Assembly (NCBI GenBank): GCA_030630935.1
Contig: DAOVMD010000003.1
Span: 1 to 25,324, forward strand
Direction: 5' to 3'
Source: Candidatus Mcinerneyibacteriota bacterium
Lineage (GTDB): Bacteria > AUK180 > JAQVHJ01
Length of the DNA stretch: 25,324 nt
The notes under the pieces are model-generated. The model saw only the letters and a program-made list of their open reading frames with translations, did no database searches and had not been told where the DNA came from. The first letter of the stretch is position 1, and every line of letters starts with the position of its first letter. The translations under genes were made by a program, and so were the position numbers. Positions 2,141 to 24,453 of this stretch are shown here, piece by piece.

Positions 2141-3319
2141 ATGGAGAATCAAGAAGACCTTATTAAAAAACAGCAGGATGAGATTATTGAACTTAAGAAG
2201 TTAATTGAACAGTACGAGAAACAACAACAGGTTACTTTGAGTAATATGTCTATATCCCGGGTTCCGGTTAATGAAGGGACTTTTACTATTAAGGGTCTTG
2301 AGGAAGCTGTTATTCATATTGATGAGAAGAACAGGATAAAATATTGTAATTCCCAACTTTTAAATATGATCGGGTGTTCCGAGAAAGAAGAAGTTAAGGG
2401 TAAAAGAATTATTGATCCTGATTTTCCCGGGTTTTCGAAGGAATTTTTATTAGCGATTATTGGAAGTGCACAGACCTCAGGTAATGTCTTTGTAACCGAA
2501 CGCAGTACCCCGGAAATAGTTGAGTTCATGTGTCCGGAAGAGCGGGATAGGCATAAGACAGAAGGTCCATTGTTGAGGTATGTGGTAACCCCGTTAAAAT
2601 CAGGGATTCAGATCGTAATTCAAGACATATCAAAGGTCAGGTGGTTGGAGACCACCTTCGGGAGATATGTTTCACCCAAGGTAATTCAGCAGATGCTGCT
2701 TATGGACGAGAAAGAGTTAATGAATACAGAAAGACGAACCCTAACAATTTTATTTGCAGATTTGAGAGGTTTTACAAAAATGTGTCAGGAGATTGGACCG
2801 GAAGAGATCGTAGAGACGGTAAATTCATATTTATCTAATATGGTTAATGTAATTGAAGCCAATGACGGAACCATTGATAAATTTATCGGTGACGAGATCA
2901 TGGCGTTTTGGGGTGCGCCCGTTCATGATGAATTCCATTCATTAAAAGCGTTTATAACCGCTGTTGAGATGCAGAAAACCCATCAGGAGATTATAAAGTC
3001 GAGAATAAAAAATAATAAAAAAATGCCGGAGATGGGAATTGGGATTGCGACAGGGGAAGTGATTGTAGGGAATATTGGTACTCCAAAAAGATTGGATTTT
3101 ACCGTACTTGGCCACCATGTGAATCTCGGTGCAAGATTATGCGGTAAAGCAGAGGGTGGGGAGATTTTAACCACAAAAGAAACCCATAAATGTGCAATGG
3201 ATGTTTATAAAAAATTCGATCAGAAACATGTAGCAAAAATGAAATTTATCGCAAAAGGAAAACTTGAACTAAAAAATGTAAAACAGGCAATTGAGGTTTT
3301 TTCGGTTCTTTATAAGTGA
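2141..3319 (+). CDS. Class III adenylate cyclase with N-terminal coiled coil and PAS-like domain
   Basis: 392 residues, ATG preceded by AAAGAGGT. Residues 1-30 are a charged, glutamine-rich coiled coil; ~48-165 look like a PAS domain (A-V-I-H-I-D-E-K-N-R-I, later T-P-L-K-S-G-I-Q-I-V-I-Q-D-I-S). The cyclase homology domain spans ~195-390. Metal-binding aspartates are D207 (LFADLRGFT) and D251 (DKFIGDEIMAFWGAP). The purine-selecting pair is K247 and D319 (RLDFTVLG), which in this family marks ATP rather than GTP. The transition-state pair is N328 and R332 (VNLGARL). All catalytic residues are present, so it should be active as a homodimer making cAMP. There is no transmembrane segment, so it is probably cytosolic, with the PAS-like region as input. 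It stands alone between repeat-filled gaps; the previous gene ends 506 bases upstream. No cAMP-binding regulator is in the window. Confidence 0.93.
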   Translation: MENQEDLIKKQQDEIIELKKLIEQYEKQQQVTLSNMSISRVPVNEGTFTIKGLEEAVIHIDEKNRIKYCNSQLLNMIGCSEKEEVKGKRIIDPDFPGFSKEFLLAIIGSAQTSGNVFVTERSTPEIVEFMCPEERDRHKTEGPLLRYVVTPLKSGIQIVIQDISKVRWLETTFGRYVSPKVIQQMLLMDEKELMNTERRTLTILFADLRGFTKMCQEIGPEEIVETVNSYLSNMVNVIEANDGTIDKFIGDEIMAFWGAPVHDEFHSLKAFITAVEMQKTHQEIIKSRIKNNKKMPEMGIGIATGEVIVGNIGTPKRLDFTVLGHHVNLGARLCGKAEGGEILTTKETHKCAMDVYKKFDQKHVAKMKFIAKGKLELKNVKQAIEVFSVLYK

Positions 3320-3782: not shown

Positions 3783-3811
3783 TTGACTAAAAGGCGATTA
3801 TATGCTATAAT
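3783..3811 (+). promoter_or_regulatory. Sigma-70-type promoter for the M48 protease gene
   Basis: TTGACT (3783-3788), 17-base spacer, TATAAT (3806-3811), with TATGC directly before the -10 giving an extended -10. The same arrangement, nearly base for base, is at 16498-16526. The predicted leader to the start at 3899 is about 80 bases. Confidence 0.85.
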
Positions 3812-3898: not shown

Positions 3899-5545
3899 AT
3901 GAAGGTTAAATTGCAATTTGCGTCTTTAATGACTTTGAGTTTTCTCTTTGGCTTGGTTCTTGTAATTATTCTTGCTGCTTCCTATTTTGCCGGAAAAATA
4001 TCCTGGCAATTTATGATCGGGATAACTATATTATCAAATGTTTTAACATGGTTATTGGGTCCCTATATTAGTGATATTATTTATAAAATATTTTATAAAA
4101 TTAAATTTTATAATTATGAGGAAATTAAGCAATATCCTTATGCGCAATTTATAAAAAAAGTTTGTGATAAACATAACATTAAAACTCCAAAAATAGGAAT
4201 TATCAACGATCAAAACCCGACCGCGTTTACCTATGGTTCAGCTTCCTTTAATGCCAGAGTAGTTGTTACCGAAGGACTATTTAAATTTCTTAATGAACAA
4301 GAACTAAACGCAGTAGTTGCTCATGAATTGGGTCATATTGTCAATAAGGATTTTATAGTAATGTCAATAGCATCAACCCTTTTATCTATTCTTTATGAAT
4401 TATATGTAATCTTTACAGAAACAAGAAACCGCTCTTCTTCATCTTCTTCAAGCTCAGAAAACGGAAAAAGTTATTTTTTCTTCATAGGTTTAGTTTCTCT
4501 AATCTTCTATTGGATAGGAACTTATTTTGTTTTATATTTAAGCAGATTAAGAGAATATTATGCAGATGAATTTTCTGCAAAAGAGACCGGAGACCCGAAT
4601 ATCCTTTCATCCGCCTTGATTAAGGTCGCCTATGGAATAGCATCGGTTCCCGACACGGAAAAAACTGCTCATTTATTGAACACGACAAGAGCACAAGGAA
4701 TTTTTGATTTTAAAGCAGCAAAAAACATCGGGTTAATCTATGAAAATGATAAAGAACGAAAAGGGCTTCTTGAAAGATCCCTTCTATTTGACATTGTCAA
4801 TCCCTGGGCTTGGATTTATCAGTTGAAATCTACCCATCCTTTAATCGGAAAGAGAATTAAAAGGTTATGCAGTTTGACGACTTCTCCCATTTATGATTTT
4901 GAAAATATAATAAACTCTGAAGTTGACAAGGAAAAATTATGGTCAAACTTTTTCAAAGATATTTTAGTTATGTATTCTCAATTAATTGTTATAATAGTGA
5001 CAATTTTAGCTGTAATTCCTCAAGCCTTTACTAGTATAAATTTCATAGTTCCCACAATAATCGCTGGTTTAGTTCTATTAATAATTGTTTCGATTATAAA
5101 ACTAAGATATAAATTCCCGATAGGTGATTTTAAAGAAGCAACTATCCTTGAATATCTTGCAGATATTTATGCATCCCCAATTAAAGGTAAACCGATAAAA
5201 ATTGAAGGACAGGCAATCGGAAGAGGCGAGGCCGGATTCATTTTCGGGGAAGACATGCTCTTTCAGGATAAATCGGGTTTTATTTATCTTAATTATGAAA
5301 GTGCAATTCCAATATTTGGAAACTTATTTTTTGCTTGGAAGAAATTAGATGCTTTATTAAAGGTACCGGCAACTTCAACCGGATGGTTTTTACGGGGAAA
5401 TGCTTTCCACTTGGAATTATACAGGTTTGAGACAAAATCACAAACAATAAAGAGTTATGTTAGATTTTGGGAACTTGCCGGGTTAAGTGCACTCGTTTTA
5501 ATTTGCTCCATATCAATTTATATTTTGGCATTTTATAAAGGATGA
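3899..5545 (+). CDS. HtpX-like M48 family membrane zinc metalloprotease
   Basis: 548 residues, ATG after GGGAGGG. Two N-terminal membrane helices (~8-30, 35-58) are followed by the protease domain with H142-E-L-G-H146 as the zinc-binding and catalytic motif, third ligand E219 in SRLREYYADEFSA, and the family's STHPLIGKRI motif at ~311-320. Two further helices lie at ~154-174 and ~192-215, joined by a run of eight serines (179-186). This far it matches HtpX, which degrades misfolded membrane proteins. It is almost twice HtpX length: another helix pair (~358-376, 382-401), a ~110-residue soluble domain of OB-like appearance (~405-520) and a final helix (~524-545) are added. The soluble tail could present substrates or bind a partner; that is inference. 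It has its own promoter, and the next gene starts 160 bases later behind a separate -10, so it is probably monocistronic. I do not assign htpX because of the extra domains. Confidence 0.9.
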   Translation: MKVKLQFASLMTLSFLFGLVLVIILAASYFAGKISWQFMIGITILSNVLTWLLGPYISDIIYKIFYKIKFYNYEEIKQYPYAQFIKKVCDKHNIKTPKIGIINDQNPTAFTYGSASFNARVVVTEGLFKFLNEQELNAVVAHELGHIVNKDFIVMSIASTLLSILYELYVIFTETRNRSSSSSSSSENGKSYFFFIGLVSLIFYWIGTYFVLYLSRLREYYADEFSAKETGDPNILSSALIKVAYGIASVPDTEKTAHLLNTTRAQGIFDFKAAKNIGLIYENDKERKGLLERSLLFDIVNPWAWIYQLKSTHPLIGKRIKRLCSLTTSPIYDFENIINSEVDKEKLWSNFFKDILVMYSQLIVIIVTILAVIPQAFTSINFIVPTIIAGLVLLIIVSIIKLRYKFPIGDFKEATILEYLADIYASPIKGKPIKIEGQAIGRGEAGFIFGEDMLFQDKSGFIYLNYESAIPIFGNLFFAWKKLDALLKVPATSTGWFLRGNAFHLELYRFETKSQTIKSYVRFWELAGLSALVLICSISIYILAFYKG

Positions 5546-5704: not shown

Positions 5705-8700
5705 ATGAATAAAGAAAAGAATCTTCTTTTTGGTGTACTTGCGGTACAGATGGGTTTTGTTACAAAAGAACATATGATGGCAGCTGCCGTTATTTGGGCA
5801 ACGAATCAAAACAGAGTGTTATCTGATATTCTTGTAGAAAATGGTTGGCTTAAAGAAAAAAACAAATTAGGAATAGAAAATATTGTTGAACTTCAACTTG
5901 AAGATAATGAGAATGATTTAAACAAAGCCTTAGATTCTATTGGTGGTTTGGAAGTAGTCCATAAGTCTTTTGCTGGTTCTATTGTTGTTACTGAATCAGG
6001 TGAAGTTTTACCATCGATAGGTGGAACTCAAGAACCTACAGATACTGTTTCTGCTCAAGATGATTTAACGAATGATGAAAAGTTAACGATTGAACAGCCT
6101 GGTCGTTACACAATCAAGGGTGAACAAGGTCGTGGCGGGATTGGTAAGGTTTTGGTTGCATTTGACTCACATCTTGGCCGGGAGATTGCGGTTAAGGAAC
6201 TGATAGCATTTGACGAAGGTTTGAATAAGGATCAGCCCACTCCTATAAGTAAGACTGCAGCAATGGTCGCCAGGTTCCTGACCGAGGCACGGATCACCGG
6301 GCAATTGGAGCACCCGTCTATAGTTCCTGTTTACGAAATAGGTAAGAAATCTGACGGTAAAATCTATTATACTATGAAGCTGGTTAAGGGAGAGACCTTA
6401 GCTGATAAACTGGCCAATGAAAAAGACCTTGCAGGCCGTTTGAAATATCTTGATAATTTTGTTGATTTGTGCAATGCGATTGCGTATGCTCATTCACGCG
6501 GTGTGATTCACAGGGATATTAAACCTCAGAATGTTATGATAGGTGAGTTTGGTGAGACGGTTGTTCTGGACTGGGGTCTTGCAAAAGTTAAAGGTCACAC
6601 TGATGAATCATCCGGGAAACTTAAGCTCGAGATAGAAGCACTTAAGGAGAGCTCCGGATTTAAGACTATTCCCGGAAGAGCTTTGGGTACACCATCATAT
6701 ATGCCCCCTGAACAGGCGGAGGGTTTATTGGACGAGATAGATGAGCAAAGTGATGTTTATTCATTAGGAGCAGTTCTTTATGAGATTCTAACAGGTCAAC
6801 CACCGCATACCGGTGAAACTGTGTATGAGATAATGAGTAAGGTTATCGATGAAGAACCGAAAAAGTTAATAGACATCAATAAAGACCTTCCCGCAGACCT
6901 GGTAGCGATCTGTGAAAAAGCCTTGTACAAGAAGAAAAAGAAACGCTATGCCAATGCTTTAAACCTCTCTGAAGATATTAAGAACTTCATGACCGGGAGT
7001 ATGGTAAGCGCTTACCAATATAACCCTATTGAGAAGTTAAAGAAATGGGCTAAGAAGAATAAACCGGTGGTAATAACCGCAACTGTTGGTATACTTTTAT
7101 TATTTGGATTAACTTTATTTACATGGATAAATATATCTAAGAATAAACAATTTAATAAATTCTCCAAGGTTCAAATTCTTTTAGAAAAAGCAGTATTAGA
7201 AGAGCAGAAGGGAAATTATTATTTATCATATTTCTATTATATTAATGCATACTTGAATTCAGATGAAAATAAAATAGAAGAATATTCTTTGGAAGGAATA
7301 AGTAGATTATCGAATTTATACAAAACCCCAAAAGAAAATATAGAAAAAAAAGAGAAGTTATATTCTAATAAGTTTTATTTTCAAATACTTTATATAGACT
7401 ATAAGATGGTTATTAAAATATTTAATTCCAGCACAAATCAAATAATGAAAAATTATAAAGAAGCTAAGGAATATGGTTTATCTCCAAATAAAAAATATCT
7501 AATCTTACATTGGCAAGATCAGTTAATTGAAATAAATCTTGAGAAAGGAACAATTAATGAGCAAAGTTCTGAATCTCAAATGCATTTTTCTTTAATTACC
7601 CCGATAAAGAATGATTTTATTTTCATTAAAGAATTCAATAAACATAATAAAAAATGGAAAATCATAAAGTTCTCTATTCCTGGTTTAAAGGACAAGGAAA
7701 TTGTATTTGATGACTGGGCCTGGCGTGAAGCAGGGGATATAATAAGTATGAATTCTGATGGGAATTTAATTCTATCCGGAAGACAGAGAAAAATTACTTT
7801 CTTTAACTTAATGAGTAATCAATCGTATGAAATATTAAAAGATGAAGATCTAATCCCCAGGACATTCTCCTTTTCCAATGATGATAAATACCTTTATTTT
7901 TTGGGAAATGAAACCTTTAATATTTATAGTTTAAGCAAGAAAAAGATTATTAAGAAACTAAAAGTTTATAGATTAGAGGAATATAAGGTTACAAGTAAGT
8001 ATTATCTATTTTATTGTTTTCAAGAAGCTGCAATCATGAATAAGAACACGTATGAGAAAATTTTAAAAATTCCGGGAGAGAAACACATTCAATTATATCA
8101 AGAAGAAGATTTGTGTGTATGTTATTCGGGTAGGGAATTTGAGATTTGGGATATTAATCTCAGAAAAAGAATTTATTCTGTTCATTTCTTAAAATCGATA
8201 AATAATATTAAAATAATTGAAGATAAAGAGATCGTTATTACTTTTGAGGATAAATCAAAAATATTCTTTAAAAATTTCATTTTTGAAGTAGAGAATTCTG
8301 GTCGTTCAGATATTAAGACATTTGCATTTAATAGCGATTACTCCAATGTAATCTGGTGTGATGAATTAGGTACAATCTATTACTATAATATTATTAAGAA
8401 TAATCTTGAATTTTCAATACATAACCCGGGAATACACTTTGTTAAGTCTACGATCAGTGGGAATAAAAAAAACGCTGCTTTATTAACACGTCGGGAAGCA
8501 CGTTTAACAATCTTTATATCAGAAATTTTAATATTTGATTTAGAAAAAAGAGAGGAATTGTATAGGTTTAAAATTGATGAAGGTGCAGGCGGGAAATATT
8601 ATAACTTTAAGTTCTTTCCACAATCTAATCTTTTAATATATTGTATTGATAATGTAACATCTCTCTTTGACATTAAGCAAAAAGAAATCATTGCAACTTT

Positions 8701-10135
8701 TGAGGGCAGGTTTTTTGATAAATACTCTATAAGCCCTGATGAAACCAAACTGATAACTTACATTCCTGGAAAGAAATTATTTATCTGGAACTTGAAAACG
8801 AAAGAATTGGAGAGTGAAGAGAGTTTTAACTTGGAGAGAGGAGAAAGTTCCAATGAATGTTTTTATGCATTCTTTAATTCAAACAATAAATTAATCGCAG
8901 CCATTCTTAGGAAAGGCTTTTTTGAATTAGTAGATTTGAGTAGTGGAGAAAATATTCAGAAGATAAATATAGATTTAATATCCAAGTCAGTAAAACACCT
9001 TTATTATATAGAGAGACTTATTAAAGCCTTTCCTGAAAAGAACCTTATTTTAATGAACCTGTTTGATAAAATAATAATTTTTAATTATAATACCAAGAAA
9101 AGGAGTGTTATTTCTCGTAGAGGAGATTATTTTCAACGAATTGTGTTAGACAAAGAAAATAATATTCTACTTAGTCTTTCAGGTAAAAAGATTTTGTTTT
9201 ATAATTTAAACATTCTTGAGCTGGATAAAAATGAACTAAAAGATTATTATAATGAAAATTTTAACTTTAGATTATTAGAAATTTCATATCACCCTCTTAA
9301 CTCAATTGCATTTGAATGTTATAAAAAACGAAGAAGATTGTTGTTCGATAGTATTAAATATCCCTACTTTTTTATTTTTAATAATAAAGACAAGATTAAT
9401 AAAGGGATTGCTCCATCAAAGAGAACAAGAGCATTAATAAAGAAAATAATACTCGCATCTTTAGTGTTATTTATACTATTATTTGTAATTTTTTATAATA
9501 CAGGAAAAGTTAAATCAATATATTTAAATAGAATATTGAAATTTTTTGAATTTATACTTTATATAATTCTGATCAATACAACTTTATTTTTTATAGTTAA
9601 AATTTCTTTGGATGCGTATTACTCTACAAGCTTTATTATTAAGATTTTCGGGTTCAGCACAAGCCGTTATTTCATGGATAATTATTTGACATTAGCTATA
9701 AATCACCAAATTGTATTTGCTTTACTACTAACGATTATATTGTTTTTACCATTATTATTTATTAAAATTAAAGAAAAAAATAATGTATTGAGTAAATATA
9801 AATTGTTTTCTATTTGGGCGTCTTCATTTTTATTGATAACTATTATTTTCACTAATAAAATACGGTTTTTTATGAATGAAAATGGGTTGATGGGAAAAAT
9901 AATTACATTTAAAGAATTTTTGTTTTTCTTTTTATTGGGAGTGATTTTAATATTATTGATCCCGGAATATATTTTTAGATTTAAACACTCGAAAAAATTA
10001 GAATATATAAAAAACTTGTGTATATCACTTTATTCTTTTACAATTGCACTTATTTTAAATTGGACATATCTATGCTTTTTTACTTTTGTAGGGTCGTACT
10101 TTAACATTATTTTGAGGAATCTTTATTTGAAGTAA
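5705..10135 (+). CDS. Giant membrane Ser/Thr protein kinase with WD40-like sensor and six-helix C-terminal domain (kinase A)
   Basis: 1476 residues, ATG after GGGAGA. Residues 1-95 are a helical module beginning NLLFGVLAVQ; the same module precedes similar kinases I recall from Planctomycetota and relatives. The Hanks-type kinase (~134-430) has glycine loop G142-R-G-G-I-G147, ATP lysine K164 (IAVKEL), alpha-C E194, catalytic HRD with D271 and N276, metal D289 in DWG instead of DFG, PPE at 335-337 for APE, and D350-V-Y-S-L-G. All catalytic residues are intact. One membrane helix (~455-476) leads to a ~750-residue beta-rich region with scattered WD40-like blades (FEIWDINLRKR, FIWNLKTKELE), then about six membrane helices (~1243-1476). 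Predicted topology puts the kinase in the cytoplasm and the propeller outside. It is a tandem paralogue of the next gene, with a 125-base gap of repeats and no obvious terminator. Ligand and substrates are unknown. Confidence 0.9.
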   Translation: MNKEKNLLFGVLAVQMGFVTKEHMMAAAVIWATNQNRVLSDILVENGWLKEKNKLGIENIVELQLEDNENDLNKALDSIGGLEVVHKSFAGSIVVTESGEVLPSIGGTQEPTDTVSAQDDLTNDEKLTIEQPGRYTIKGEQGRGGIGKVLVAFDSHLGREIAVKELIAFDEGLNKDQPTPISKTAAMVARFLTEARITGQLEHPSIVPVYEIGKKSDGKIYYTMKLVKGETLADKLANEKDLAGRLKYLDNFVDLCNAIAYAHSRGVIHRDIKPQNVMIGEFGETVVLDWGLAKVKGHTDESSGKLKLEIEALKESSGFKTIPGRALGTPSYMPPEQAEGLLDEIDEQSDVYSLGAVLYEILTGQPPHTGETVYEIMSKVIDEEPKKLIDINKDLPADLVAICEKALYKKKKKRYANALNLSEDIKNFMTGSMVSAYQYNPIEKLKKWAKKNKPVVITATVGILLLFGLTLFTWINISKNKQFNKFSKVQILLEKAVLEEQKGNYYLSYFYYINAYLNSDENKIEEYSLEGISRLSNLYKTPKENIEKKEKLYSNKFYFQILYIDYKMVIKIFNSSTNQIMKNYKEAKEYGLSPNKKYLILHWQDQLIEINLEKGTINEQSSESQMHFSLITPIKNDFIFIKEFNKHNKKWKIIKFSIPGLKDKEIVFDDWAWREAGDIISMNSDGNLILSGRQRKITFFNLMSNQSYEILKDEDLIPRTFSFSNDDKYLYFLGNETFNIYSLSKKKIIKKLKVYRLEEYKVTSKYYLFYCFQEAAIMNKNTYEKILKIPGEKHIQLYQEEDLCVCYSGREFEIWDINLRKRIYSVHFLKSINNIKIIEDKEIVITFEDKSKIFFKNFIFEVENSGRSDIKTFAFNSDYSNVIWCDELGTIYYYNIIKNNLEFSIHNPGIHFVKSTISGNKKNAALLTRREARLTIFISEILIFDLEKREELYRFKIDEGAGGKYYNFKFFPQSNLLIYCIDNVTSLFDIKQKEIIATFEGRFFDKYSISPDETKLITYIPGKKLFIWNLKTKELESEESFNLERGESSNECFYAFFNSNNKLIAAILRKGFFELVDLSSGENIQKINIDLISKSVKHLYYIERLIKAFPEKNLILMNLFDKIIIFNYNTKKRSVISRRGDYFQRIVLDKENNILLSLSGKKILFYNLNILELDKNELKDYYNENFNFRLLEISYHPLNSIAFECYKKRRRLLFDSIKYPYFFIFNNKDKINKGIAPSKRTRALIKKIILASLVLFILLFVIFYNTGKVKSIYLNRILKFFEFILYIILINTTLFFIVKISLDAYYSTSFIIKIFGFSTSRYFMDNYLTLAINHQIVFALLLTIILFLPLLFIKIKEKNNVLSKYKLFSIWASSFLLITIIFTNKIRFFMNENGLMGKIITFKEFLFFFLLGVILILLIPEYIFRFKHSKKLEYIKNLCISLYSFTIALILNWTYLCFFTFVGSYFNIILRNLYLK

Positions 10136-10137
10136 AA

Positions 10138-10260
10138 GTTCTTTCCCTGCAAGCAGGGCTTGTAAAAGGGTGCTTGCACCTGGATTGCCGGAGGCACAGC
10201 CTCTTTGATAGCAATGACAAATAATGTCTGATGACAATAAAAGGAGTTATAATAAAAATC
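10138..10260 (+). repeat. Kinase-gap repeat with three stacked hairpins and the kinase B leader
   Basis: Three small perfect hairpins follow one another: CCCTGC-aa-GCAGGG (10145-10158), GGTGC-tt-GCACC (10169-10180) and GAGGC-aca-GCCTC (10191-10203). Then come gatagcaatgac, the end of the gtcattgcgag repeat family, and AAGGAG (10241-10246). None is followed by a T-run, so they are not classical terminators. Related sequence is at 1838-1888 and 3405-3482. Transcription from kinase A may continue through, with the hairpins acting as attenuators or stabilisers (inference). Confidence 0.7.
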
Positions 10261-13200
10261 ATGAAACAAGATAAGAATCTACTTTTTGGTGTGCTTGCGG
10301 TTCAGAAGGGTTACATCACCCAATTTCAATTAATAGAATCTGCTGAGATTTGGACAGAAAATCAGGGCAGAAATTTAGAAGATATCCTTTTAGATAAAGG
10401 ATTCATATCGACTAAGCAGCGGGATGAGATTGCAAAGTTAATTTCTGTTCAGCTTGAAAAGTACAAAGGTAATACCCGTGAAGTTTTAGAATCTTTGGGT
10501 GGTTCAAATGCAGTTCATGAATCATTCGGCGGGTCAATTATTTTAACTGACTCGGGTGAAGTATTACCATCGATAGGTGGAACTCAAGAACCGACAGATA
10601 CTGTTACAGCTCAAGATGATTTAACGAATGATGAGAGGTTAACGCTTGAGCAGCCAGGTCGTTATACGATCAAGGGCGAGCAAGGTCGTGGTGGGATTGG
10701 TAAGGTTTTGGTTGCGTTTGATTCTCATCTTGGTCGTGAGATTGCGGTTAAGGAACTTATAGCATTTGATGAAGGAGCGAATAAGGATCACCCCACTCCG
10801 ATAAGTCAGACTGCAGCAATGGTAGCCAGGTTCCTGACTGAAGCTCGGATCACAGGGCAATTGGAACACCCGTCTATTGTCCCGGTCTATGAAATAGGTA
10901 AGAAATCTGACGGAAAAATTTATTATACAATGAAATTGGTTAAGGGTGAAACCTTAGCAGATAAACTTGCAAAGGAAACAGACCTTGAGGGTCGTTTGAA
11001 GTACCTTGATAATTTTGTTGACCTGTGTAATGCGATTGCGTATGCTCATTCCAGAGGAGTAATCCACCGCGATATTAAACCTCAGAATGTTATGATAGGA
11101 GAATTTGGAGAGACGGTTGTTCTGGACTGGGGTCTTGCAAAAGTTAAAGGTCACCCGGATGAATCATCAGGGAAGCTTAAACTCGAGATAGAAGAACTCA
11201 AGGAGAGTTCCGGATTTAAGACCATTGCCGGAAGAGCTCTGGGGACGCCATCATACATGCCCCCGGAACAGGCGGAAGGGAAACTTGACGAGATAGATGA
11301 ACAGAGTGATGGTTATTCATTGGGAGCAGTTCTTTATGAGATTCTAACCGGGAAACCACCATTTGTAGGTACGACAGTATACGAGATCATAAGTAATGTT
11401 ATTGATGAAGAACCTGAGAATCTTATGAAATCAAGTTTAGAGATCCCGGTTGAGTTGAGTGCAATCTGTATGAAAGCAATTTCGAAGAAGAAGAGTGAGA
11501 GATATGAATCTGCAAAGGACATTGCGGATGATATTAAAAAATTTATGACCGGCAGCCTGGTTTCAGCATATAGGTATAATCCAACAGAAAGACTTAAGAA
11601 ATGGGTAGATAAGAATAAACCAGTAGTATTAACGAGTTTCTTTGCTTTATTAATTTTAATAGTGTTCGGTATCTTTTCCTGGACAAATATCTCCCAGCGC
11701 GAGAAAGCAATTAAGAATTCTTTAGCCAGGACATCATTTAGATTGGCAAAGAAAGCAGAGGCAGAGCAATTTTATAATAAAGCATATTTCTATTATGCTA
11801 ACTCCATTTTAAATGCTCCAAACTCAAGTATCTCGGAACAAGCAAGGGGCTTGCTTGCAAAAGAAATCCTATTTACCAGTAGATTAGAAAGGACTTTTAA
11901 ATTAGAGGGAATAACAGGAAAGATTACTAGGGTATTAATAACTCATAACGAAAAGTATTTAGTTACAATCTTAAAGGATGCAGGGTTTTCGGATGCTCCT
12001 AAAAAAAATGTACCCAGTGTTGTTATTATTTGGGACCTTCAAACATCTAAAATAATTAAGAAACTAAATAATTTCAGAGAAGTATATTTAAGTGATGACG
12101 GAAGTTATTTGATTCTTTATAATAGCTTCAGGGTTTTTCAATATGAGACATGGCATAATATGAAAAATGATAAGTACTATGAGCAAGATGAAATTCCCGT
12201 GAATGAATTTTTGGTTTTGAATTTGAATAATTTTAAAGAGAGTAAATTTGAATTAAGTAAATCCGAAGCAATCACTAATTTAACCTATAAGCCTAAAGAT
12301 GGCAATATCTATTTTAACATTTGGAATGAACCTGAAAATAAAAAATCAATCTTTATTTTTAATATATATTTAATGAAAGAGAATAAAGAACTTTTAAAGA
12401 AATGGAAAGATAAAAATACTCTCGCAATTAGCCCTGATGGAAAGTTTATCGCCGTAAAGGCAGATGGTAATATTACACTCTATGATTTCAAAAGTACAAA
12501 GAAGATTATTGATCTTGGTCATTATGAAAATGTTTTTTTCAGCTCTGATGGTTATTCTTTGGTTATGTTAGGAAAAAAAACAATAGAGACACTTGATTTA
12601 AATTCTTTGAAGATCATTTCTTCATTCAAATCAAAACGTCCGCAACAGGGTAAATATATAAAATTTGTTAAAGGTTTAAATTGGATTTTATATGGTAATG
12701 ATAACGGTGGAAATATTGAAGTTTGGAATTATCGAAATGCTTATTTTATAAGTGATATTGATCTGCCAAGTTTTATGTATTATCCTTGCCCGTTAACTCT
12801 GAGTAATGATAATTTATTCCTTGCAGTATCCCGAGAGAATAACAGTGTTGACATCAGCAGTTTTCTGATAACCCCGACCCTGGAAAAGATTTATACTCCG
12901 GTTAAAACTACTGCACTTTATTTTAATAAGGATTCAACCAAGCTTTTGGTTGCCGGGAAAGATCAAACAATTAATTTCTGGGACATTAAAAATTTAAAAA
13001 TCCTGAGAAGATATCCAAAGTTTCATAAGAGATCATTTGATTCTATCTGTTTTAGTCCTTCAAGTAAATATGTATTAGGTTGTACCAGTTCTTATGATTT
13101 TAAAGATAATTTATCTTATGATGTTATATATATTATAGATTGGAATACAACAGAAATACATAACAAGATTGATGTTAAAACTAAAAGTTCCAAGGAAAAA

Positions 13201-14796
13201 CAAATTATTACTGATGAAAAGAATATTGTATTTTATGATAATTCAGGCACTGTAAAGATCTGGGATTTTAACACTCTAAAGGAAGTAGGTGCCATTCATA
13301 GGAAACAAGAGAATTCCAAGAAGTGTGTCTCGTTAATCCCGAACTATAATGATTACCTGATCGTGAATGATGATAAAGCTGAATTATGGAACTTGCAGAC
13401 CATGAAGAAGGAAAGAACCTTTCCCGGAACCCTTCCAAATGAAAACTGTATTGACTCAACAGGTAAAAGAATCGCAGTAGTTGATGATTCATTAAACAAA
13501 ATTATGGTACTGAAAACCATGACCGGGGAAGTAATTGAGGAATACAACATTGATTTTGAAAAGTATACACCTTACTTTGGTAAAGATGGTGACCTGAAAA
13601 TACTTCAGTTTTTAGGATGGGAAAATATTAAAATTAAGAATCTCAAGACTAATAGAATTGAGTTTAACCAAAAGCTTACTTTAACTAAATATTTCAATGA
13701 ATATCTTGTTTATATTAATGAAGATACAGATAAGTTTATAATTGATGTTTGGTATTCTATAATTATTGTTGATACCACAAGAAACAAAATTAGGAAGATT
13801 GAATTAAAGGATGTAGGATACAGGTCTGTGAACAACGATTTCAGTATAATTTTATCCCGAAACGGGCTTGACCTTTATTACTATAACGGTGATTACTTTT
13901 TAATGACTGAAGATGAGATTGTAGATGATATTATCAGAAGAACAGGACTGTACCCACAGGAATTTTCGTATGAACCTGTTAATGAAGTGGTTTATAATTA
14001 TTATCAACAAAGAAAAGAATATTTCTCAGAAAGTTTTGTTTTAGGTTCTGATATAATATTCCAGTATAACATCCTCAAGAAGAAAGAGGTTAAGGTGTTT
14101 TTTATTAAAACCTCTTTTATAATGTTGATTATTTTATTTATCCTCCTGCTCTTCTCCAGAAAAATCTTTGTATTAAAAAGAAATGAAATAGGTGAAGTTA
14201 TAGAGAAAAAAGATTTAAGAAAATTACTTGTTTACTATGGATTATTTGAAATGACTCTTTTTACAATTGTGATATTGGGAGCATTTCTATTTGACCTGGA
14301 TCAATTCATGAAAGTTGTTTTTAGTTACCTTTATAATATAACTGATTTCAGATTAGTTGGGATACCTAATATATCCGGGTTTATACCAAAATTAATTAAA
14401 ATATTGCTGATAACCTTACCCGGAGTAATCATCTTATCTACACTGCCTTTTTTGAGGAATTTATTCTTGAAAAAGATTGGGTTTAAAATTTGGTTGACTG
14501 GATGGATCGCATTGACTATTATATTTAATTCAACCTGTAATAATTTCTTGAAAGAAAGTAATTTGGTGGGAACATTTATTAATTTTGGGGAATTTGCGGG
14601 GTTTGTTGGTTTAGGAATTTTGTTAAGTTTTATTATTCCGGAATTATTATCAAAGATTAGACTATTTAGGGAACGCGGAATTATTCAGAATGTTTTCATT
14701 CCAATCATTGGTATCTCAGGAGCGTACTTCTCGCTCTGGGTATATACAGCATTCTTCTTTAAAGTATATTACTATTTTGCGACGTTCTCATTATAA
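10261..14796 (+). CDS. Giant membrane Ser/Thr protein kinase, tandem paralogue (kinase B)
   Basis: 1511 residues from the ATG at 10261. I prefer this start because its protein (M-K-Q-D-K-N-L-L-F-G) aligns end to end with kinase A; the ATG at 10231 precedes the AAGGAG site and lies in repeat sequence. Spacing from AAGGAG to 10261 is long (14 bases). Kinase landmarks have the same residue numbers as kinase A: GRGGIG 142-147, K164, E194, D271, N276, DWG 289-291, PPE. One conserved spot differs: DVYSLG has become D350-G-Y-S-L-G. A membrane helix at ~455-476 is followed by a propeller with clearer WD40 blades (VIIWDLQTSK ~587, INFWDIKNLKIL ~903, VKIWDFNTLK ~997, AELWNLQTMK ~1039), then six helices (~1279-1511) homologous to those of kinase A. 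Kinase cores are over 90% identical by eye, while propellers are strongly diverged. The stop is 16 bases before the hydrolase start, so the two are probably cotranscribed. Confidence 0.9.
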   Translation: MKQDKNLLFGVLAVQKGYITQFQLIESAEIWTENQGRNLEDILLDKGFISTKQRDEIAKLISVQLEKYKGNTREVLESLGGSNAVHESFGGSIILTDSGEVLPSIGGTQEPTDTVTAQDDLTNDERLTLEQPGRYTIKGEQGRGGIGKVLVAFDSHLGREIAVKELIAFDEGANKDHPTPISQTAAMVARFLTEARITGQLEHPSIVPVYEIGKKSDGKIYYTMKLVKGETLADKLAKETDLEGRLKYLDNFVDLCNAIAYAHSRGVIHRDIKPQNVMIGEFGETVVLDWGLAKVKGHPDESSGKLKLEIEELKESSGFKTIAGRALGTPSYMPPEQAEGKLDEIDEQSDGYSLGAVLYEILTGKPPFVGTTVYEIISNVIDEEPENLMKSSLEIPVELSAICMKAISKKKSERYESAKDIADDIKKFMTGSLVSAYRYNPTERLKKWVDKNKPVVLTSFFALLILIVFGIFSWTNISQREKAIKNSLARTSFRLAKKAEAEQFYNKAYFYYANSILNAPNSSISEQARGLLAKEILFTSRLERTFKLEGITGKITRVLITHNEKYLVTILKDAGFSDAPKKNVPSVVIIWDLQTSKIIKKLNNFREVYLSDDGSYLILYNSFRVFQYETWHNMKNDKYYEQDEIPVNEFLVLNLNNFKESKFELSKSEAITNLTYKPKDGNIYFNIWNEPENKKSIFIFNIYLMKENKELLKKWKDKNTLAISPDGKFIAVKADGNITLYDFKSTKKIIDLGHYENVFFSSDGYSLVMLGKKTIETLDLNSLKIISSFKSKRPQQGKYIKFVKGLNWILYGNDNGGNIEVWNYRNAYFISDIDLPSFMYYPCPLTLSNDNLFLAVSRENNSVDISSFLITPTLEKIYTPVKTTALYFNKDSTKLLVAGKDQTINFWDIKNLKILRRYPKFHKRSFDSICFSPSSKYVLGCTSSYDFKDNLSYDVIYIIDWNTTEIHNKIDVKTKSSKEKQIITDEKNIVFYDNSGTVKIWDFNTLKEVGAIHRKQENSKKCVSLIPNYNDYLIVNDDKAELWNLQTMKKERTFPGTLPNENCIDSTGKRIAVVDDSLNKIMVLKTMTGEVIEEYNIDFEKYTPYFGKDGDLKILQFLGWENIKIKNLKTNRIEFNQKLTLTKYFNEYLVYINEDTDKFIIDVWYSIIIVDTTRNKIRKIELKDVGYRSVNNDFSIILSRNGLDLYYYNGDYFLMTEDEIVDDIIRRTGLYPQEFSYEPVNEVVYNYYQQRKEYFSESFVLGSDIIFQYNILKKKEVKVFFIKTSFIMLIILFILLLFSRKIFVLKRNEIGEVIEKKDLRKLLVYYGLFEMTLFTIVILGAFLFDLDQFMKVVFSYLYNITDFRLVGIPNISGFIPKLIKILLITLPGVIILSTLPFLRNLFLKKIGFKIWLTGWIALTIIFNSTCNNFLKESNLVGTFINFGEFAGFVGLGILLSFIIPELLSKIRLFRERGIIQNVFIPIIGISGAYFSLWVYTAFFFKVYYYFATFSL

Positions 14797-14812
14797 CGGG
14801 GAGATATTCAAA

Positions 14813-16342
14813 ATGCAAATTTCATTTCGAAAAATTATAAAAGTATCCGTTATCTTATGTATCGTTCTAACTTTTCTAAGGGTTTATTCATACAGAGTTG
14901 AGAACATAGAGTTCACAGTCAAGAATGAAGAAAAATCTGCAATTGTTTTTCTCCCTGATGAAAAAGGAACATACCCCGGAGTGTATTATGCCTATACGAA
15001 GTATAGAGCTGTGACTCCATGTATGATTGCGACAGCTAAGTATCTTGCTGATAATGGAATAATATGTATGATGTTTTCGAACAAAGCATTTAAGGATAAT
15101 CCAGGACCTCAGTTTTTTCAAAAAGCAATTGATGATGGGATCGATGCAGTTGATTACTTGAGATCAAGAGAAGATGTTTATTCTAATAAAATAGGTGTTC
15201 TGGGTCATTCTTTCGGAGCAACCGTAGCCGAGTTAATTAATGTTAATGTTGGGAATATTAGTGCAGTTGTTATGTTGGGAATGATAAGTACTTCCAAACA
15301 GAATGTCAGGTCAAATATAATGATTGGTCTCGGTGCAATGGATGAGTTTAGAACATATAATGATGCTGTAAAATCAATAACTCTGGTCACGGGAAATTCC
15401 GCTGCAGAGGTAGGTGAGGTTTATGGCGATATGGACAACTACAATGCTCGTTTACTTTTAATCTCTCCATACTCAGAGCATTTTGGTGAAACTTATGATC
15501 CTATTCTCCTGAGCTCAATGTTAAATTGGTTTCAAAGAAGCTTCGGAATTAAGCAGGATAAGGTTCATAGATTCTCTCCGATTATAGTTCATTTGGTTGT
15601 TAGGTTCCTTATTTCAGCTATTTGTTTTATTATATTTTTAATGATTTTTCTAAAAATTTCTACCAGGTACGAAAATAAAAGAACCATCCAGAGAATTATA
15701 ACTTTCATATTGAGTTTGGTGTTTATATTTTTAATATGGAAGTTTCCATTTAGGATATTCTCCAAAGAGATTATCTTTTCTATTATACTTGCCGATTTAA
15801 TCGTTAATCACTTAATTTATAAAAATTTAAAATCTATTCTTATGAAAACTTCTCTGATTTTTCTGATTATTATCTTGTGCTTTTCATCAGGATTATTAGT
15901 GAACTCATTTCAATTTATTCTGAACCACCCTAAATTAACATTGAAGTTGATCTTGGGATTATTGGCTCAGATAATAATACTCCCTGTTGCAGGTTATGAG
16001 TATCTGGTAGCTTATTTTGTCGGTGGCTTAAGGAGTTTTCCCTTGCTTACTGCTCCTGTATTTTACCTGTTAGTATTTGAAATTATTTGCCCGGGATATA
16101 CAAATTTAATTAAAATAAAAAAAATAAAGAAAAAACCTTCACCCAAAAAGATGCTATGGGTTTTTATAATCCTTATCCTCGTATTAGTTGTACTGGTTAT
16201 AATACGTTTTAATCAGGGCTTTATTGATGAAGCAAGTACTCTTGTTCTTAGACGACTCTTTCTAAGGGTTGTACTCATGCCTCTAATGATATTCGTATTG
16301 ATAAGCAGGTCAAAACTTTGGAAACGGATTAAAGATATTTGA
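14813..16342 (+). CDS. Membrane-anchored alpha/beta hydrolase with polytopic C-terminal domain
   Basis: 509 residues from the ATG at 14813, preceded by GGGGAG nine bases away; a longer reading from 14690 would overlap kinase B and has no ribosome-binding site. Residues 7-23 form a signal-anchor helix. Residues ~30-245 are a dienelactone-hydrolase-like alpha/beta fold with nucleophile S133 in G131-H-S-F-G135, likely acid D177 (GLGAMDEF) and histidine H223 (SPYSEHFGE), so a full catalytic triad is visible. The rest (~255-505) is about eight hydrophobic helices with no recognised family. The catalytic domain is predicted outside the cytoplasmic membrane. Position 16 bases after kinase B suggests one operon, and the kinases also end in membrane domains, so a membrane complex is conceivable (inference). 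Substrate unknown; an envelope ester, lipid or peptide is possible. Confidence 0.82.
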   Translation: MQISFRKIIKVSVILCIVLTFLRVYSYRVENIEFTVKNEEKSAIVFLPDEKGTYPGVYYAYTKYRAVTPCMIATAKYLADNGIICMMFSNKAFKDNPGPQFFQKAIDDGIDAVDYLRSREDVYSNKIGVLGHSFGATVAELINVNVGNISAVVMLGMISTSKQNVRSNIMIGLGAMDEFRTYNDAVKSITLVTGNSAAEVGEVYGDMDNYNARLLLISPYSEHFGETYDPILLSSMLNWFQRSFGIKQDKVHRFSPIIVHLVVRFLISAICFIIFLMIFLKISTRYENKRTIQRIITFILSLVFIFLIWKFPFRIFSKEIIFSIILADLIVNHLIYKNLKSILMKTSLIFLIIILCFSSGLLVNSFQFILNHPKLTLKLILGLLAQIIILPVAGYEYLVAYFVGGLRSFPLLTAPVFYLLVFEIICPGYTNLIKIKKIKKKPSPKKMLWVFIILILVLVVLVIIRFNQGFIDEASTLVLRRLFLRVVLMPLMIFVLISRSKLWKRIKDI

Positions 16343-16497: not shown

Positions 16498-16526
16498 TTG
16501 ACTAAAATGATGTTATATGCTATAAT
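16498..16526 (+). promoter_or_regulatory. Sigma-70-type promoter for the repeat lipoprotein gene
   Basis: TTGACT (16498-16503), 17-base spacer ending TATATGC, TATAAT (16521-16526). Almost the same sequence as the M48 protease promoter, including much of the spacer and the following tttta, which suggests a shared ancestry or a shared regulator. The start codon is 37 bases downstream. Confidence 0.88.
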
Positions 16527-16562
16527 GATTTTAGATGAATTTAAATTAGAAGGTAGGTGAAA

Positions 16563-18725
16563 ATGAAGAGAGTATTACAAATTATTATGATAGCCGCACT
16601 GGTGCTTTTAATTAATAGCTGTTTATATAAGAATGAAATTAAGCATGAAAAAACTGTTGAGACAGGGATTCGTTATGCTAAAACGGAATATTATAAAAAA
16701 GTTGAGGTGAATGATAATGAAATAATCATTGGTAAAGACCCTGTTTCAGAAGATAAGATAAAAGAGATTGATTGTTATCGTTTTTGTTATGATAATCAGG
16801 ATAGGTTAGTTAAAGTTGAACATTTGAGAAATGGTAAGATAATTAACAGATCTCGTTTTGGAAACAATGTTGCTCAAGTAATTGTAAAATATTCCCCGGA
16901 GTATGAAACAAGGATATTTCAAGATCGTAATGATAAACCTGTTTTTGATAGATACGGAATTTATTCAAAGCTTTTGAAATATGATGAGAAGGGGAAGATA
17001 ATTGAGATGAGTTTTTTGGGCAAGGATGGAAAGTTAAAAGAAAAAATAGGAGGAAAGCATCATAGTATAGCGATTATCCGTTTGAAATATAATGAGGATA
17101 GAAATATAATTGAGGAAAGCTGTTATGGGAAGGATAATGAACTAAAAGAAATCGAAAGAGGACATCATTTTGGGATTGCAATTTTCCGCAAGAAATACGA
17201 TGATGAGGATGGAAACAAAATTGAAGAAAGTTTTTATGGAAAGGATGAAAAATTAAAAGAAGATTTTGAAGGAATAGCAATTTGCCGGTGGAAATACGAT
17301 GAGGCGGGTAACAAAATTGAACAGAGTTTTTACGGAAATGACAAAAAATTAAAAGAAAACAAATGGGGTATACATAAAGGCATAGCAATTATCCGCTGGA
17401 AATATAATGAGAAAGGTAAATTAGTTGAGATGAGCTATTATGGAAAAGATGAAAAGCTGACAGAAAATATGGGCAAACATAATGATTCTCACAGAAAGGT
17501 CATGACGATTGTTATGAGACATAAAGGGATAGCAATTATCCGCTTAAAATACGATGATGCGGGGAATAAAATTGAAGAGAGTTTTTTCGGAAAGGACAAG
17601 AAATTAAAAGGAAATCCTGGAGGTGTAGCAATTTTCCGCTGGAAATATGATGAGAAAGGAAACAAAATTGAGGAGAGATATTTTGGAAAGAATGAAAAGC
17701 TGAGACAAAATTTTATGGGAATCGCAATTTTCCGCTGGAAATATGATGCTGATGGTAATAATATTGAGATAAGTTTTTATGGAACGGATGAAAAATTAAA
17801 AGAAGAAATGTATGGAGGGGTAGCAATTTTCCGTTGGAAATATGATGATAAGGGAAATAAAATTGAGATAAGTTTTTATGGAACGGATGAAAAATTAAAA
17901 GAATTTAAAGAAGGAAAGTATAAAGGAATAGCGACTTGCAACTGGAAATATGATGCTGATGGAAAGAAGATTGAGGAGAGTTATTTTGGAAGAGATGAAA
18001 AATCAAAAGAAAATTCGTATGGAAGTGTAGCAATTAAACGCTGGCAATACGACGCTTTTGGTAACAATATTGAAAAAAGTTATTTTGGAACAGATGAAAA
18101 GCTAAAAGGAGATTCCAAAGGCATTGCAATTTATCGGTGGCAATACGATGATGATGGAAACCGAATTGAGGAAAGCTATTTTGGTAAGGATGAGAAATTA
18201 AAAGAAAAGAATGATGGACAGTATGGTAGAGTAGCAATTCTACGCTGGCAATATGATGTGGATGGAAACAAAATTGAGGAGAGTTATTTTGGAGAAGATA
18301 AAAATCTGAGAGAAAGTAAAAGAGGTTATGCAATTATTCGTTGGAAATATAATGCTGCAGGAAATAAAATTGAGGAGAGTTATTTTGGAAAGGATAAAAA
18401 GCTGAGAGAAAGAATTAATGGAATAGCAATTATTCGCTGGGAATATGATGAGAAGAGAAAAATCATTGAAGAAAGTTATTATGGAAAGGATAATGAATTA
18501 AAAGAAAAAGAACGAGGTCGGTATGAAGGAATCGCAATTATCCGCTGGCAATATGATAAGAAGGGAAGAAAATTTGAGGAACGTTATTTTGGAAAGACTA
18601 ATTTATTAAAAGAAATAGAAGGTGAAGAGTATAGAGGGATAGCAATTATCCGTTGGAAATATGATGAAAAAGGAAAATGTATAAAAATTGTTCACCTGAA
18701 TAAAGATGGTGAAAAGATAAGATAA
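16563..18725 (+). CDS. Lipoprotein of about 16 tandem YFGKDEKLKE-type repeats
   Basis: 720 residues from the ATG at 16563 (a GTG two codons earlier is possible; AAGG and GGTGA upstream fit the ATG). The N-terminus is a lipoprotein signal: M-K-R, hydrophobic stretch, then lipobox L-I-N-S-C20, so the mature protein is lipid-anchored in the envelope. After ~130 residues of unique sequence come about 16 repeats of 31-37 residues, consensus GIAIIRWKYDEKGNKIEESYFG then KDEKLKE plus a short variable linker; one unit has a ~14-residue insert (NDSHRKVMTIVM region). The pattern of an aromatic-Gly turn and a W-x-Y-D-x-x-G-N motif recalls MORN, YwqK-like and YD-type beta repeats, so a long beta solenoid or sheet is likely. 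Very lysine- and glutamate-rich. Function unknown; surface binding or envelope spacer roles are guesses. Monocistronic with its own promoter. Confidence 0.85.
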   Translation: MKRVLQIIMIAALVLLINSCLYKNEIKHEKTVETGIRYAKTEYYKKVEVNDNEIIIGKDPVSEDKIKEIDCYRFCYDNQDRLVKVEHLRNGKIINRSRFGNNVAQVIVKYSPEYETRIFQDRNDKPVFDRYGIYSKLLKYDEKGKIIEMSFLGKDGKLKEKIGGKHHSIAIIRLKYNEDRNIIEESCYGKDNELKEIERGHHFGIAIFRKKYDDEDGNKIEESFYGKDEKLKEDFEGIAICRWKYDEAGNKIEQSFYGNDKKLKENKWGIHKGIAIIRWKYNEKGKLVEMSYYGKDEKLTENMGKHNDSHRKVMTIVMRHKGIAIIRLKYDDAGNKIEESFFGKDKKLKGNPGGVAIFRWKYDEKGNKIEERYFGKNEKLRQNFMGIAIFRWKYDADGNNIEISFYGTDEKLKEEMYGGVAIFRWKYDDKGNKIEISFYGTDEKLKEFKEGKYKGIATCNWKYDADGKKIEESYFGRDEKSKENSYGSVAIKRWQYDAFGNNIEKSYFGTDEKLKGDSKGIAIYRWQYDDDGNRIEESYFGKDEKLKEKNDGQYGRVAILRWQYDVDGNKIEESYFGEDKNLRESKRGYAIIRWKYNAAGNKIEESYFGKDKKLRERINGIAIIRWEYDEKRKIIEESYYGKDNELKEKERGRYEGIAIIRWQYDKKGRKFEERYFGKTNLLKEIEGEEYRGIAIIRWKYDEKGKCIKIVHLNKDGEKIR

Positions 18726-21330: not shown

Positions 21331-21348
21331 ATGAAAAGAGCATTATGA
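21331..21348 (+). CDS. Possible 5-codon leader peptide overlapping the HD-GYP start
   Basis: ATG-AAA-AGA-GCA-TTA-TGA encodes M-K-R-A-L and its TGA overlaps the ATG of the next gene (ATGA). The usual A/G-rich site for the next gene (AAAAGAG) lies inside it. Its own ribosome-binding site is poor, so it may be chance; if translated it would couple initiation of the HD-GYP gene. Confidence 0.25.
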   Translation: MKRAL

Positions 21349-22466
21349 AGAACCCCAGGTACAAAATATTATTAGTTGATAGTAACGATATTATTCAGCA
21401 AGCTTTCATATCTTATATTAACGACTCAAAACTTGCTTGGGAAGTATTTATTGCAGGATCAATTGCCACAGCGAAAAATATGCTTTCAGCAACAGAAATG
21501 AATATTGTGATTTCTAATTATTCCTTACCCGATGGTAATGTTTTTGATATTCTTGAATTTGAGAAAGACATTCCGGTAATTGTAACCACCGAAACCGGTA
21601 ATGAAGAAGTAGCGGTACAATTAATTAAAGCCGGAGCAAGTGAATATATTATTAAGGATAAGGAGTACAATTATTTTAAACTTTTTCCAACCCTGATTAA
21701 AAATGCGATTAGATCTAAATTTTCCGAAGTTCAAATCCGCGATTTTCACTATAAATTAAAGGAGATGGTGGATACTCGTACAGAGGAATTTAATAAATTG
21801 AATTTATTTCTTCAAGAAGAGATCGAAGATCATAAAAAAACAGTAAAGGTTTTAAAGGAAAGTTTAAATAAACAAAAGAGTCTTTTATTATCCTTACTGA
21901 AAGTTGTTTCCAGTATTATAGGAATAGCAGATAAATTTACTGCTGAGCATCAACTTCGAGTTGCCAGGTTAGCTCGGGCAATTGCACTTGAGATGAATTT
22001 ACCAGAGGAGAAAATTGAAGGATTATATCGAACTTCATTTGTTCATGATATTGGAAAGATTAATATCCCTTCGCAGATTATAAATAAACCTGAAGCCTTA
22101 ACCACTGATGAATATAAATTAGTAAAGACGCATCCGTTTATTGGGTTTGAGATTTTAAAAGATATTGATTTTCCATGGCCTGTTGCAAAAATAATTTTAC
22201 AGCATCATGAGCGGTTAGATGGTTCCGGTTACCCCTATAAAATAAAAGAGGCAGAAATTTTATTGGAAGCAAAGATCATTGCAGTTGCAGATGTAGTTGA
22301 GGCAATGTGTTCAAATAGACCATGGCGACCTGCATTAGGTCCGCTTGAAGCATTAACTGAGATCATGAAATATAAAGGGAAATATTATGATCCTGAGATT
22401 GTTGATATTTGTGTAATGTTATTTTCAGATAAAGATTTCAAGTTTGATGACGAACCGGAATCTTAG
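21345..22466 (+). CDS. HD-GYP c-di-GMP phosphodiesterase with degenerate receiver domain
   Basis: 373 residues. Residues 6-120 form a CheY-like receiver, but the phosphoacceptor aspartate is replaced by N58 (VISNYSLPDG) and the acidic pair has only D12 (VDSND); K104 and the T81/T82 position remain. It should therefore not be phosphorylated normally. A coiled-coil linker (~130-180) leads to a complete HD-GYP domain (~185-360): H202 (AEHQLRVARLAR), H234-D235 (VHDIGKINIPSQI), H263 (KTHPFIGFEIL), H287-H288 (HHERLDGSGYP, with the GYP at 295-297) and D316 (VADVVEAM). All the usual metal ligands are present, so it should hydrolyse c-di-GMP in the cytosol. Own promoter upstream; the lipoprotein genes start 48 bases after its stop with no visible promoter, so they may be cotranscribed. 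Confidence 0.92.
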   Translation: MKNPRYKILLVDSNDIIQQAFISYINDSKLAWEVFIAGSIATAKNMLSATEMNIVISNYSLPDGNVFDILEFEKDIPVIVTTETGNEEVAVQLIKAGASEYIIKDKEYNYFKLFPTLIKNAIRSKFSEVQIRDFHYKLKEMVDTRTEEFNKLNLFLQEEIEDHKKTVKVLKESLNKQKSLLLSLLKVVSSIIGIADKFTAEHQLRVARLARAIALEMNLPEEKIEGLYRTSFVHDIGKINIPSQIINKPEALTTDEYKLVKTHPFIGFEILKDIDFPWPVAKIILQHHERLDGSGYPYKIKEAEILLEAKIIAVADVVEAMCSNRPWRPALGPLEALTEIMKYKGKYYDPEIVDICVMLFSDKDFKFDDEPES

Positions 22467-22514: not shown

Positions 22515-23471
22515 ATGAGAAATGTAAAAAGGATTTTAGTGGTGTTGTTTTTATTTAGTCTTCTAATTACTTTAATTTCCTGTGGTGGTGGTGAGAAGCT
22601 GGATATAAAACTGAAATTAAAGACCGGTGAAGTTTATGAGCAGGAGACTGTGCTTGACCAGAAAATTACGCAAGTAGTTATGGGAAACAGCATGGAGATG
22701 GATCAGAAAATAACTATGAAGTATAATCAAGTTGTAGAAGAAGTTGATGCTGATGGTAATATACTTTTTAATGTGAAATACGCAGCAGTAAAATTTATTC
22801 AGAAAACTGCTGCTTTTACAGTTGAATATGATTCAGATAATCCACCTAAGGAAATTCCACCGATGGCAATTGGCTATGATGCTTTAGTTGGGCTTGAATT
22901 CAAAATGAAAATGAATAATAAAGGTGAGGTTCTTGAGGTTTTTGGTATTGAAGAAATGTTTAAAAAAATGAGGGATAAATTTAAAAAATCCCTACCAGAT
23001 CTAAGTGAAGAAGAATTTGAAAAAATGATGGAAATCATTGAAAAAAGTTATGGTCCGGAAAGTATGGTTAATAATATGAAAAGTATGTCAGGTTTTTATC
23101 CTGATAAACCTATATCAGTAGGTTATAAATGGAAAGTTGAAAATAAATCAGGTCCTCCTTTGCCGCTTAAATTAAACACAGATTACCATTTTAAAGAGAA
23201 AAAAGATGGGATATTATTAATTACAGCTCAATCAACTTTAGAAAGTGACCCGGAAGCTGAACCAATGGAGATTGGTGAAATGAAAATGTCTTATAATGTG
23301 AAAGGTACTCAAAATGGAACTATTAAATTAGATCAGGATACTGGTTTATTAATAGAATCTAAATTACTCCAAAAATTTGAAGGTACAATTAAAATGACTG
23401 GAGCTCAGGCGATGGAGTGGCCAATTACTGCAGAAAGTACGATCATTGTGAGAACAAAGAAAGTTAAGTAG
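22515..23471 (+). CDS. Lipoprotein paralogue 1 of 3 (ATG start)
   Basis: 318 residues, ATG after AAGGAG. Signal peptide M-R-N-V-K-R with a hydrophobic stretch and lipobox L-I-S-C23. The mature part begins after a Gly-rich spacer with DIKLKLKTGEVYEQE; it then has EEVDADGNILFNVKY, a Met/Lys-rich helical middle (EEMFKKMRDKFKKSLPDL), and a hallmark F-Y-P-D-K-P-I-S-V-G-Y-K-W-K, ending in KGTQNGTIKLDQDTGLLIESK. This order resembles DUF6263-type lipoproteins (tentative, from memory). First of three tandem copies; next copy begins after 11 bases. Function unknown; likely a periplasm-facing lipid-anchored beta-rich protein, perhaps binding a lipophilic ligand (inference). Confidence 0.85.
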   Translation: MRNVKRILVVLFLFSLLITLISCGGGEKLDIKLKLKTGEVYEQETVLDQKITQVVMGNSMEMDQKITMKYNQVVEEVDADGNILFNVKYAAVKFIQKTAAFTVEYDSDNPPKEIPPMAIGYDALVGLEFKMKMNNKGEVLEVFGIEEMFKKMRDKFKKSLPDLSEEEFEKMMEIIEKSYGPESMVNNMKSMSGFYPDKPISVGYKWKVENKSGPPLPLKLNTDYHFKEKKDGILLITAQSTLESDPEAEPMEIGEMKMSYNVKGTQNGTIKLDQDTGLLIESKLLQKFEGTIKMTGAQAMEWPITAESTIIVRTKKVK

Positions 23472-23482
23472 AGAGAGATTCC

Positions 23483-24442: not shown

Positions 24443-24453
24443 GGAGAGATTCC

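Follow-up and report, generated by a model that had tools for sequence, protein, structure and literature searches.

Two giant kinase genes in tandem, the second followed closely by the gene for a membrane-bound alpha/beta hydrolase, raise the question of whether kinases and hydrolase form one signaling unit, and of whether the kinases themselves have an undescribed architecture. The stretch of DNA analysed (25,324 nucleotides, hereafter the window) is one contig of a draft genome of 3.16 Mb (471 contigs; 80% complete). With a probability of roughly 0.7, the two proteins (kinases A and B) are tandem-duplicated receptor kinases, each with an MshEN-like module, a kinase domain, a transmembrane segment (TM) and a propeller, to which a six-TM tail adds a second anchor; their catalytic cores would be matched by gene conversion, and the hydrolase (H) would be a separate protein.

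Kinase A (1476 aa, 5705..10135; Pkinase E-value 2e-34) and kinase B (1511 aa, 10261..14796) are encoded by intact open reading frames on the forward strand, as are all of the domains and tracts delimited within them below. For kinase B, a start 10 codons upstream (10231) is also open, with 10261 being the best start. Open reading frames, Pfam profiles and hydropathy peaks bear out the domain order of the original prediction for both proteins: (i) an MshEN-like N-module; (ii) a Ser/Thr kinase domain; (iii) one TM, at about residues 455-471; (iv) a WD40-like ectodomain; and (v) a six-TM tail. The kinase domain occupies residues 135-416 in each (6107..6952 in A and 10663..11508 in B; PF00069, E-value 1.2e-34 for B), and its Pkinase scores of 119.6 (A) and 120.3 bits (B), against a gathering cut-off of 31.7, place both among the Hanks-type kinases. 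All catalytic motifs are complete in A and B (GRGGIGKV, AVKEL, HRDIKPQN, DWG, and GTPSYMPPEQ), as befits Ser/Thr kinases of the HRD type. A reading of the locus as phage defence (PD-T4-6, PADLOC) was rejected, as the matches extend little beyond the kinase domain and are generic kinase matches only. A and B are paralogous over their whole length; outside the catalytic cores the two genes are about 25-45% alike, and ectodomain and tail together are 23% identical. Two further kinases of the host genome, C (1078 aa, contig C225) and D (1356 aa, contig C439), carry a six-TM tail at the equivalent position.

The N-module comprises residues 1-90 (5705..5974 in A and 10261..10530 in B), a region that aligns with the corresponding part of kinases from unrelated bacterial families. 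MshEN domains are built of two 24-residue RLGxx(L/V/I)(L/V/I)xxG...LxxxLxxQ motifs, and their fusion to Ser/Thr kinases has already been reported (PMC5013675). The motif layout of the N-modules resembles that of MshEN, whereas the Arg in the first position of motif 1 and the Gly of motif 2 are missing, and the helix connection in motif 2 is longer. The MshE-related c-di-GMP motif family of NCBIfam, NF053729, matches four of nine N-modules, with the best E-value (1.3e-7, kinase B) lying below the curated cut-off and kinase A reaching only 0.064 in a full-length scan. Thus, by its motifs and profile matches, the N-module belongs in degenerate form to the MshEN-like domains, a kind already described, and the lost residues make c-di-GMP binding doubtful.

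The WD40-like ectodomain spans 750-790 residues (481-1240 in A, 7145..9424; 481-1270 in B, 11701..14070), and the two copies align end to end. Propeller profiles match clearly in B (e.g., PF25174, 2.5e-24) and weakly in A (3e-6). The structure predicted for the B ectodomain with its tail was unusable (pLDDT 34), and closure of a propeller is unsupported by the model. Lys and Arg residues are most frequent in the tail loops between TM1 and TM2 and between TM5 and TM6, and kinase D has a LysM domain within its WD40 region (E-value 1.2e-10; L026 6046-6186). LysM domains bind peptidoglycan-type polymers. The loop charges and the LysM domain of this paralog agree with a propeller region outside the cell, although the Lys/Arg count is also high just before the first tail TM, which somewhat weakens the topology argument. 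An extracytoplasmic propeller, as first proposed, is therefore supported as a prediction, and the kinase would lie in the cytoplasm.

Receptor kinases of this general layout are not rare. Kinases 40-54% identical to A and B are found in several other bacterial families, at least five of which hold matches of about 45-54% (the G099 group, G145, G282, G320, and G191/G323). N-module and kinase domain are about 36-47% identical in G282, G145, and G191 (N-terminal part), while the best kinase matches (45-54%; G099, G237, G366, and G320) combine the kinase domain with a TM and a long C-terminal region. In all seven, the kinase is followed by one TM only, and the six-TM tail is absent. In Planctomycetota, kinases with the catalytic domain inside and WD40 repeats outside are mostly single-spanning and in some cases polytopic, and mention is made of Ser/Thr kinases for which as many as 18 TMs are predicted (PMC11032199), so a polytopic kinase is in itself no novelty. 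The association of WD40 with kinases is frequent in Planctomycetes and Cyanobacteria (PMC5587647). A and B share with the WD40 kinases of Planctomycetota and Myxococcota a cytoplasmic Pkinase domain, a single TM, a C-terminal WD40 array predicted to be periplasmic, and expansion by duplication and recombination (PMC11032199; PMC5587647). The layout of a WD40 receptor kinase (N-terminal kinase, one TM, C-terminal propeller) is present in A and B, with the propeller of A weakly detected. These proteins usually end after the propeller, a feature that is not strictly defining, whereas A, B, C, and D continue into six more TMs. The PknB/PASTA kinases (NF033483) share the kinase fold and the one-TM receptor layout, PknB being the best solved relative (1mru, E-value 1.6e-36), but A and B have no PASTA domains and carry a propeller and a six-TM tail instead. 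Hence, of the architecture proposed as undescribed, the combination of N-module, kinase, TM, and propeller is widespread, and the part that matches no described family is the tail.

The tail covers residues 1241-1476 of A (9425..10132) and 1271-1511 of B (14071..14793), with six hydrophobic peaks between residues 1248 and 1463 and between 1281 and 1494, respectively. The two tails are about 27% identical and homologous, as had been claimed (phmmer E-value 4e-9 among 1,674 open reading frames; 1.9e-11 over a longer stretch). For C, the comparison with A and B is not significant (E-value 19). The tail of D reaches 0.0027 with a profile of A, B, and C, and an hhalign E-value of 8.6e-4 at a probability of 24%, values that suggest homology to the A and B tails. 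The four tails were not accepted as one proven family, as only the A-B match is significant and C and D fall short; a four-way alignment has almost no invariant residues. A common origin with the membrane-spanning part of H was rejected (hhalign probability 0.8%). Predicted alone, the tail of A folds into six helices, as anticipated, at a quality too poor to name the fold (pLDDT 65, pTM 0.36), and a fold search with this weak model gave no match at an E-value below 1.

Searches against Pfam, PHROGs, and PDB sequences returned no match to the tail, nor did a search on plasmids. A four-row profile (tails A, B, C, and D) was run against 386 genomes, namely the window's own and 385 others, and gave good matches solely in the host genome, the source of the profile, where those in C and D are by construction. 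No tail was found in 96 further genomes from two phyla in which related kinases occur, and related kinases elsewhere end without one. Such profiles have low sensitivity for fast-evolving TM domains, so this absence is weak evidence. The survey comprised one genome per species; the host class contributed seven genomes from two families, the host's own being incomplete, and the other genomes from the relatives' sample are related only at the domain level. Within the host's family, one genome (G001) has a D-like kinase that is cut by the contig end before propeller and tail. A pattern scan of the named genomes with two poor peptide patterns hit generic kinases only and has no bearing on distribution. 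To date, the tail has thus been seen in a single genome.

Rather than being part of the sensor, the tail might be a membrane module with a separate function (a transporter, a channel, or a lipid-handling domain) that the kinase regulates in cis. A compact block of six TMs that recurs in four kinases of the host genome would suit such a module, and the lack of any match to a known family leaves room for any function. However, some invariant residues should persist in a transporter or an enzyme, and with almost none retained, and divergence so fast that C and D are not significantly similar to A and B, we regard this as unlikely.

The gene for H (509 aa, 14813..16342, forward strand) begins 16 bases downstream of the stop codon of kinase B. 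The listed open reading frame runs from 14690, with the ATG at 14813 preferred on account of a ribosome-binding site, GGGGAG (14798-14803), directly behind the stop codon. H consists of an N-terminal anchor, a hydrolase domain (BAAT_C 3e-7, DLH 2e-4), and about 8 C-terminal TM peaks. Its BAAT_C score of 31.1 bits, against a gathering cut-off of 20.9, assigns it to the alpha/beta hydrolase superfamily, and its triad of S133 (GHSFG), D177, and H223 is invariant in the nearest homolog. The enzyme, its spacing, and its membrane part are therefore as originally described.

The signaling role proposed for H fares differently. A, B, and the hydrolase could form one membrane signaling unit, with the hydrolase either controlled by the kinases or supplying the ligand that the propellers sense; the genes lie on one strand with a 16-base gap and a good ribosome-binding site, whose position directly behind the stop codon is compatible with translational coupling, and propeller and hydrolase domain are predicted to share the outer side of the membrane. 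Against this, the linkage was seen once, rather than in more than one lineage as in a conserved operon, and full-length homologs of H occur without kinases. The nearest of these (G003, from the host's class; 29% identical and similar over its full length) is flanked by a hypF-like gene and by a long open reading frame unrelated to the kinases. Full-length relatives on two Pseudanabaena plasmids, annotated as alpha/beta hydrolases (E-values of about 1e-25; 8.5e-26 over residues 36-506 of H for WP_126390901.1), adjoin mobilization and DNA-repair genes and have no kinase neighbor, and two other proteins of H-like layout (G177 and G315) likewise have no kinase nearby. G155 encodes a distant hydrolase two genes away from a TPR-like kinase; that kinase is of another type, and an opposite-strand gene intervenes. 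WP_126390901.1 and its relatives (G003, G155, G177, and G315) thus share the N-anchor, alpha/beta hydrolase, and polytopic C-terminus of H, but are only about 23-29% identical to it and have no adjoining receptor kinase of the A/B type. Conversely, no hydrolase of the H family was found beside related kinases in about 20 loci elsewhere, nor beside kinases C and D, where both contigs end close by. The survey of co-occurrence on which the original prediction had been staked accordingly yielded no related kinase with an H-family hydrolase alongside, and the sensor-hydrolase unit is not supported.

With kinase-free homologs on one side and hydrolase-free kinases on the other, the operon was rejected as a conserved unit, and a signaling unit of kinases and hydrolase is unlikely. 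The H family (N-anchor, alpha/beta hydrolase, 6-8 TMs) is unrelated to the kinases and widespread, including in other phyla without such kinases. H is predicted to be a separate extracytoplasmic membrane enzyme, esterase-like, that may be co-transcribed; it is probably a neighbor by chance proximity, not a partner, and the pairing alone would carry no significance.

The receptor-kinase reading draws further on the catalytic cores. Over residues 91-385 (approximately), A and B are identical at 272 of 295 positions (92%), compared with 226-227 of 295 for A-C and B-C. Within this core, 48 of 127 four-fold sites differ between A and B, as against 61-66 of 105 between either and C; outside it, A and B (100/234 identical) are no closer than A and C (108/233). 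In a best-segment test, informative sites joining A with B made up 152 of 210 inside residues 100-326 (6002..6682 in A, 10558..11238 in B) and 116 of 341 outside, the latter being about the one-third expected by chance, and none of 2000 shuffles reached the observed score. Synonymous third positions follow the same pattern, with 60 sites joining AB, 24 BC, and 12 AC inside the block, and 25, 21, and 16 outside. A direct repeat reported by a repeat finder (5925-6224 and 10481-10780, 84% identical) covers part of this stretch. The plain reading is clear: the kinase core has been converted between the tandem copies. A foreign origin of the GC-rich core was dismissed, as its third-position GC (0.36-0.37) falls within the 0.26-0.37 of other genes in the window, so the GC bump is mostly a matter of amino-acid composition. 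That A and B are dispensable, decaying duplicates, with core identity left from recent duplication and no conversion, is very improbable: ectodomains and tails only about 23% identical do indicate that large parts evolve fast, but the frames of 4.4-4.5 kb are open with catalytic motifs intact in both, and the core identity is sharp-edged on both sides, with synonymous third positions agreeing.

For converted receptor kinases, a course of signaling may be envisaged. In the host lineage, the six-TM tail would tether the propeller to the membrane a second time. The propeller would sense a ligand or a state of the envelope, or the tail would do so within the membrane, and this input would shift the position of the single helix leading to the kinase. 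Conversion would keep one catalytic specificity, and presumably one substrate specificity, while the sensor parts of A and B diverge, so that the two proteins would pass distinct inputs on to a single output. That the tail constitutes a new kind of membrane domain, a sensor or a coupling part, making A and B seven-helix receptor kinases whose ectodomains are held in the membrane at both ends and whose matched tandem cores serve different sensors with one output, is a tentative proposal, well short of even odds. If it holds, the layout of an external sensor anchored at both ends, absent elsewhere in the survey, would come from an under-sampled class of bacteria. The tract itself provides a natural case of a uniform catalytic core with two diverging sensors, in which modular sensor exchange in bacterial kinases becomes testable.

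The hydrolase gene is followed by that of a YD-repeat lipoprotein-like protein (722 aa, 16557..18725, forward strand; YD_repeat_2x, 8.9e-16), with a near-consensus promoter at 16498-16526. A relative on contig C225 (L025 1471-3558), with 75% identity across its first 157 residues, is convergent to kinase C, and further partial copies lie on contigs C175 and C127. A YD-repeat gene is thus present at both N-module kinase loci and, as a candidate partner, is to be preferred to H. About 20 bases before kinase D lies the gene for a membrane histidine kinase of 1333 aa (HAMP, HisKA, HATPase; L026 365-4363, contig C439), which might connect Ser/Thr signaling with two-component signaling.

Directly upstream of kinase A lies a gene for an M48 (HtpX-like) membrane metallopeptidase (3899-5545), itself preceded by a near-consensus promoter (3783-3811). 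No strong promoter match was found ahead of kinase A, which may therefore share the metallopeptidase transcript. No RNA families or tRNAs were found within the window. On either side of the region are genes for a PAS-guanylate/adenylate cyclase (2141-3319) and a receiver-HD protein, HD-GYP-like (21345-22466), which makes the use of nucleotide second messengers plausible. Toward the end of the window (22515-25323) a lipoprotein-like gene is present in three tandem copies, of which the first matched DUF6263 (7e-47) and the third is cut by the window end.
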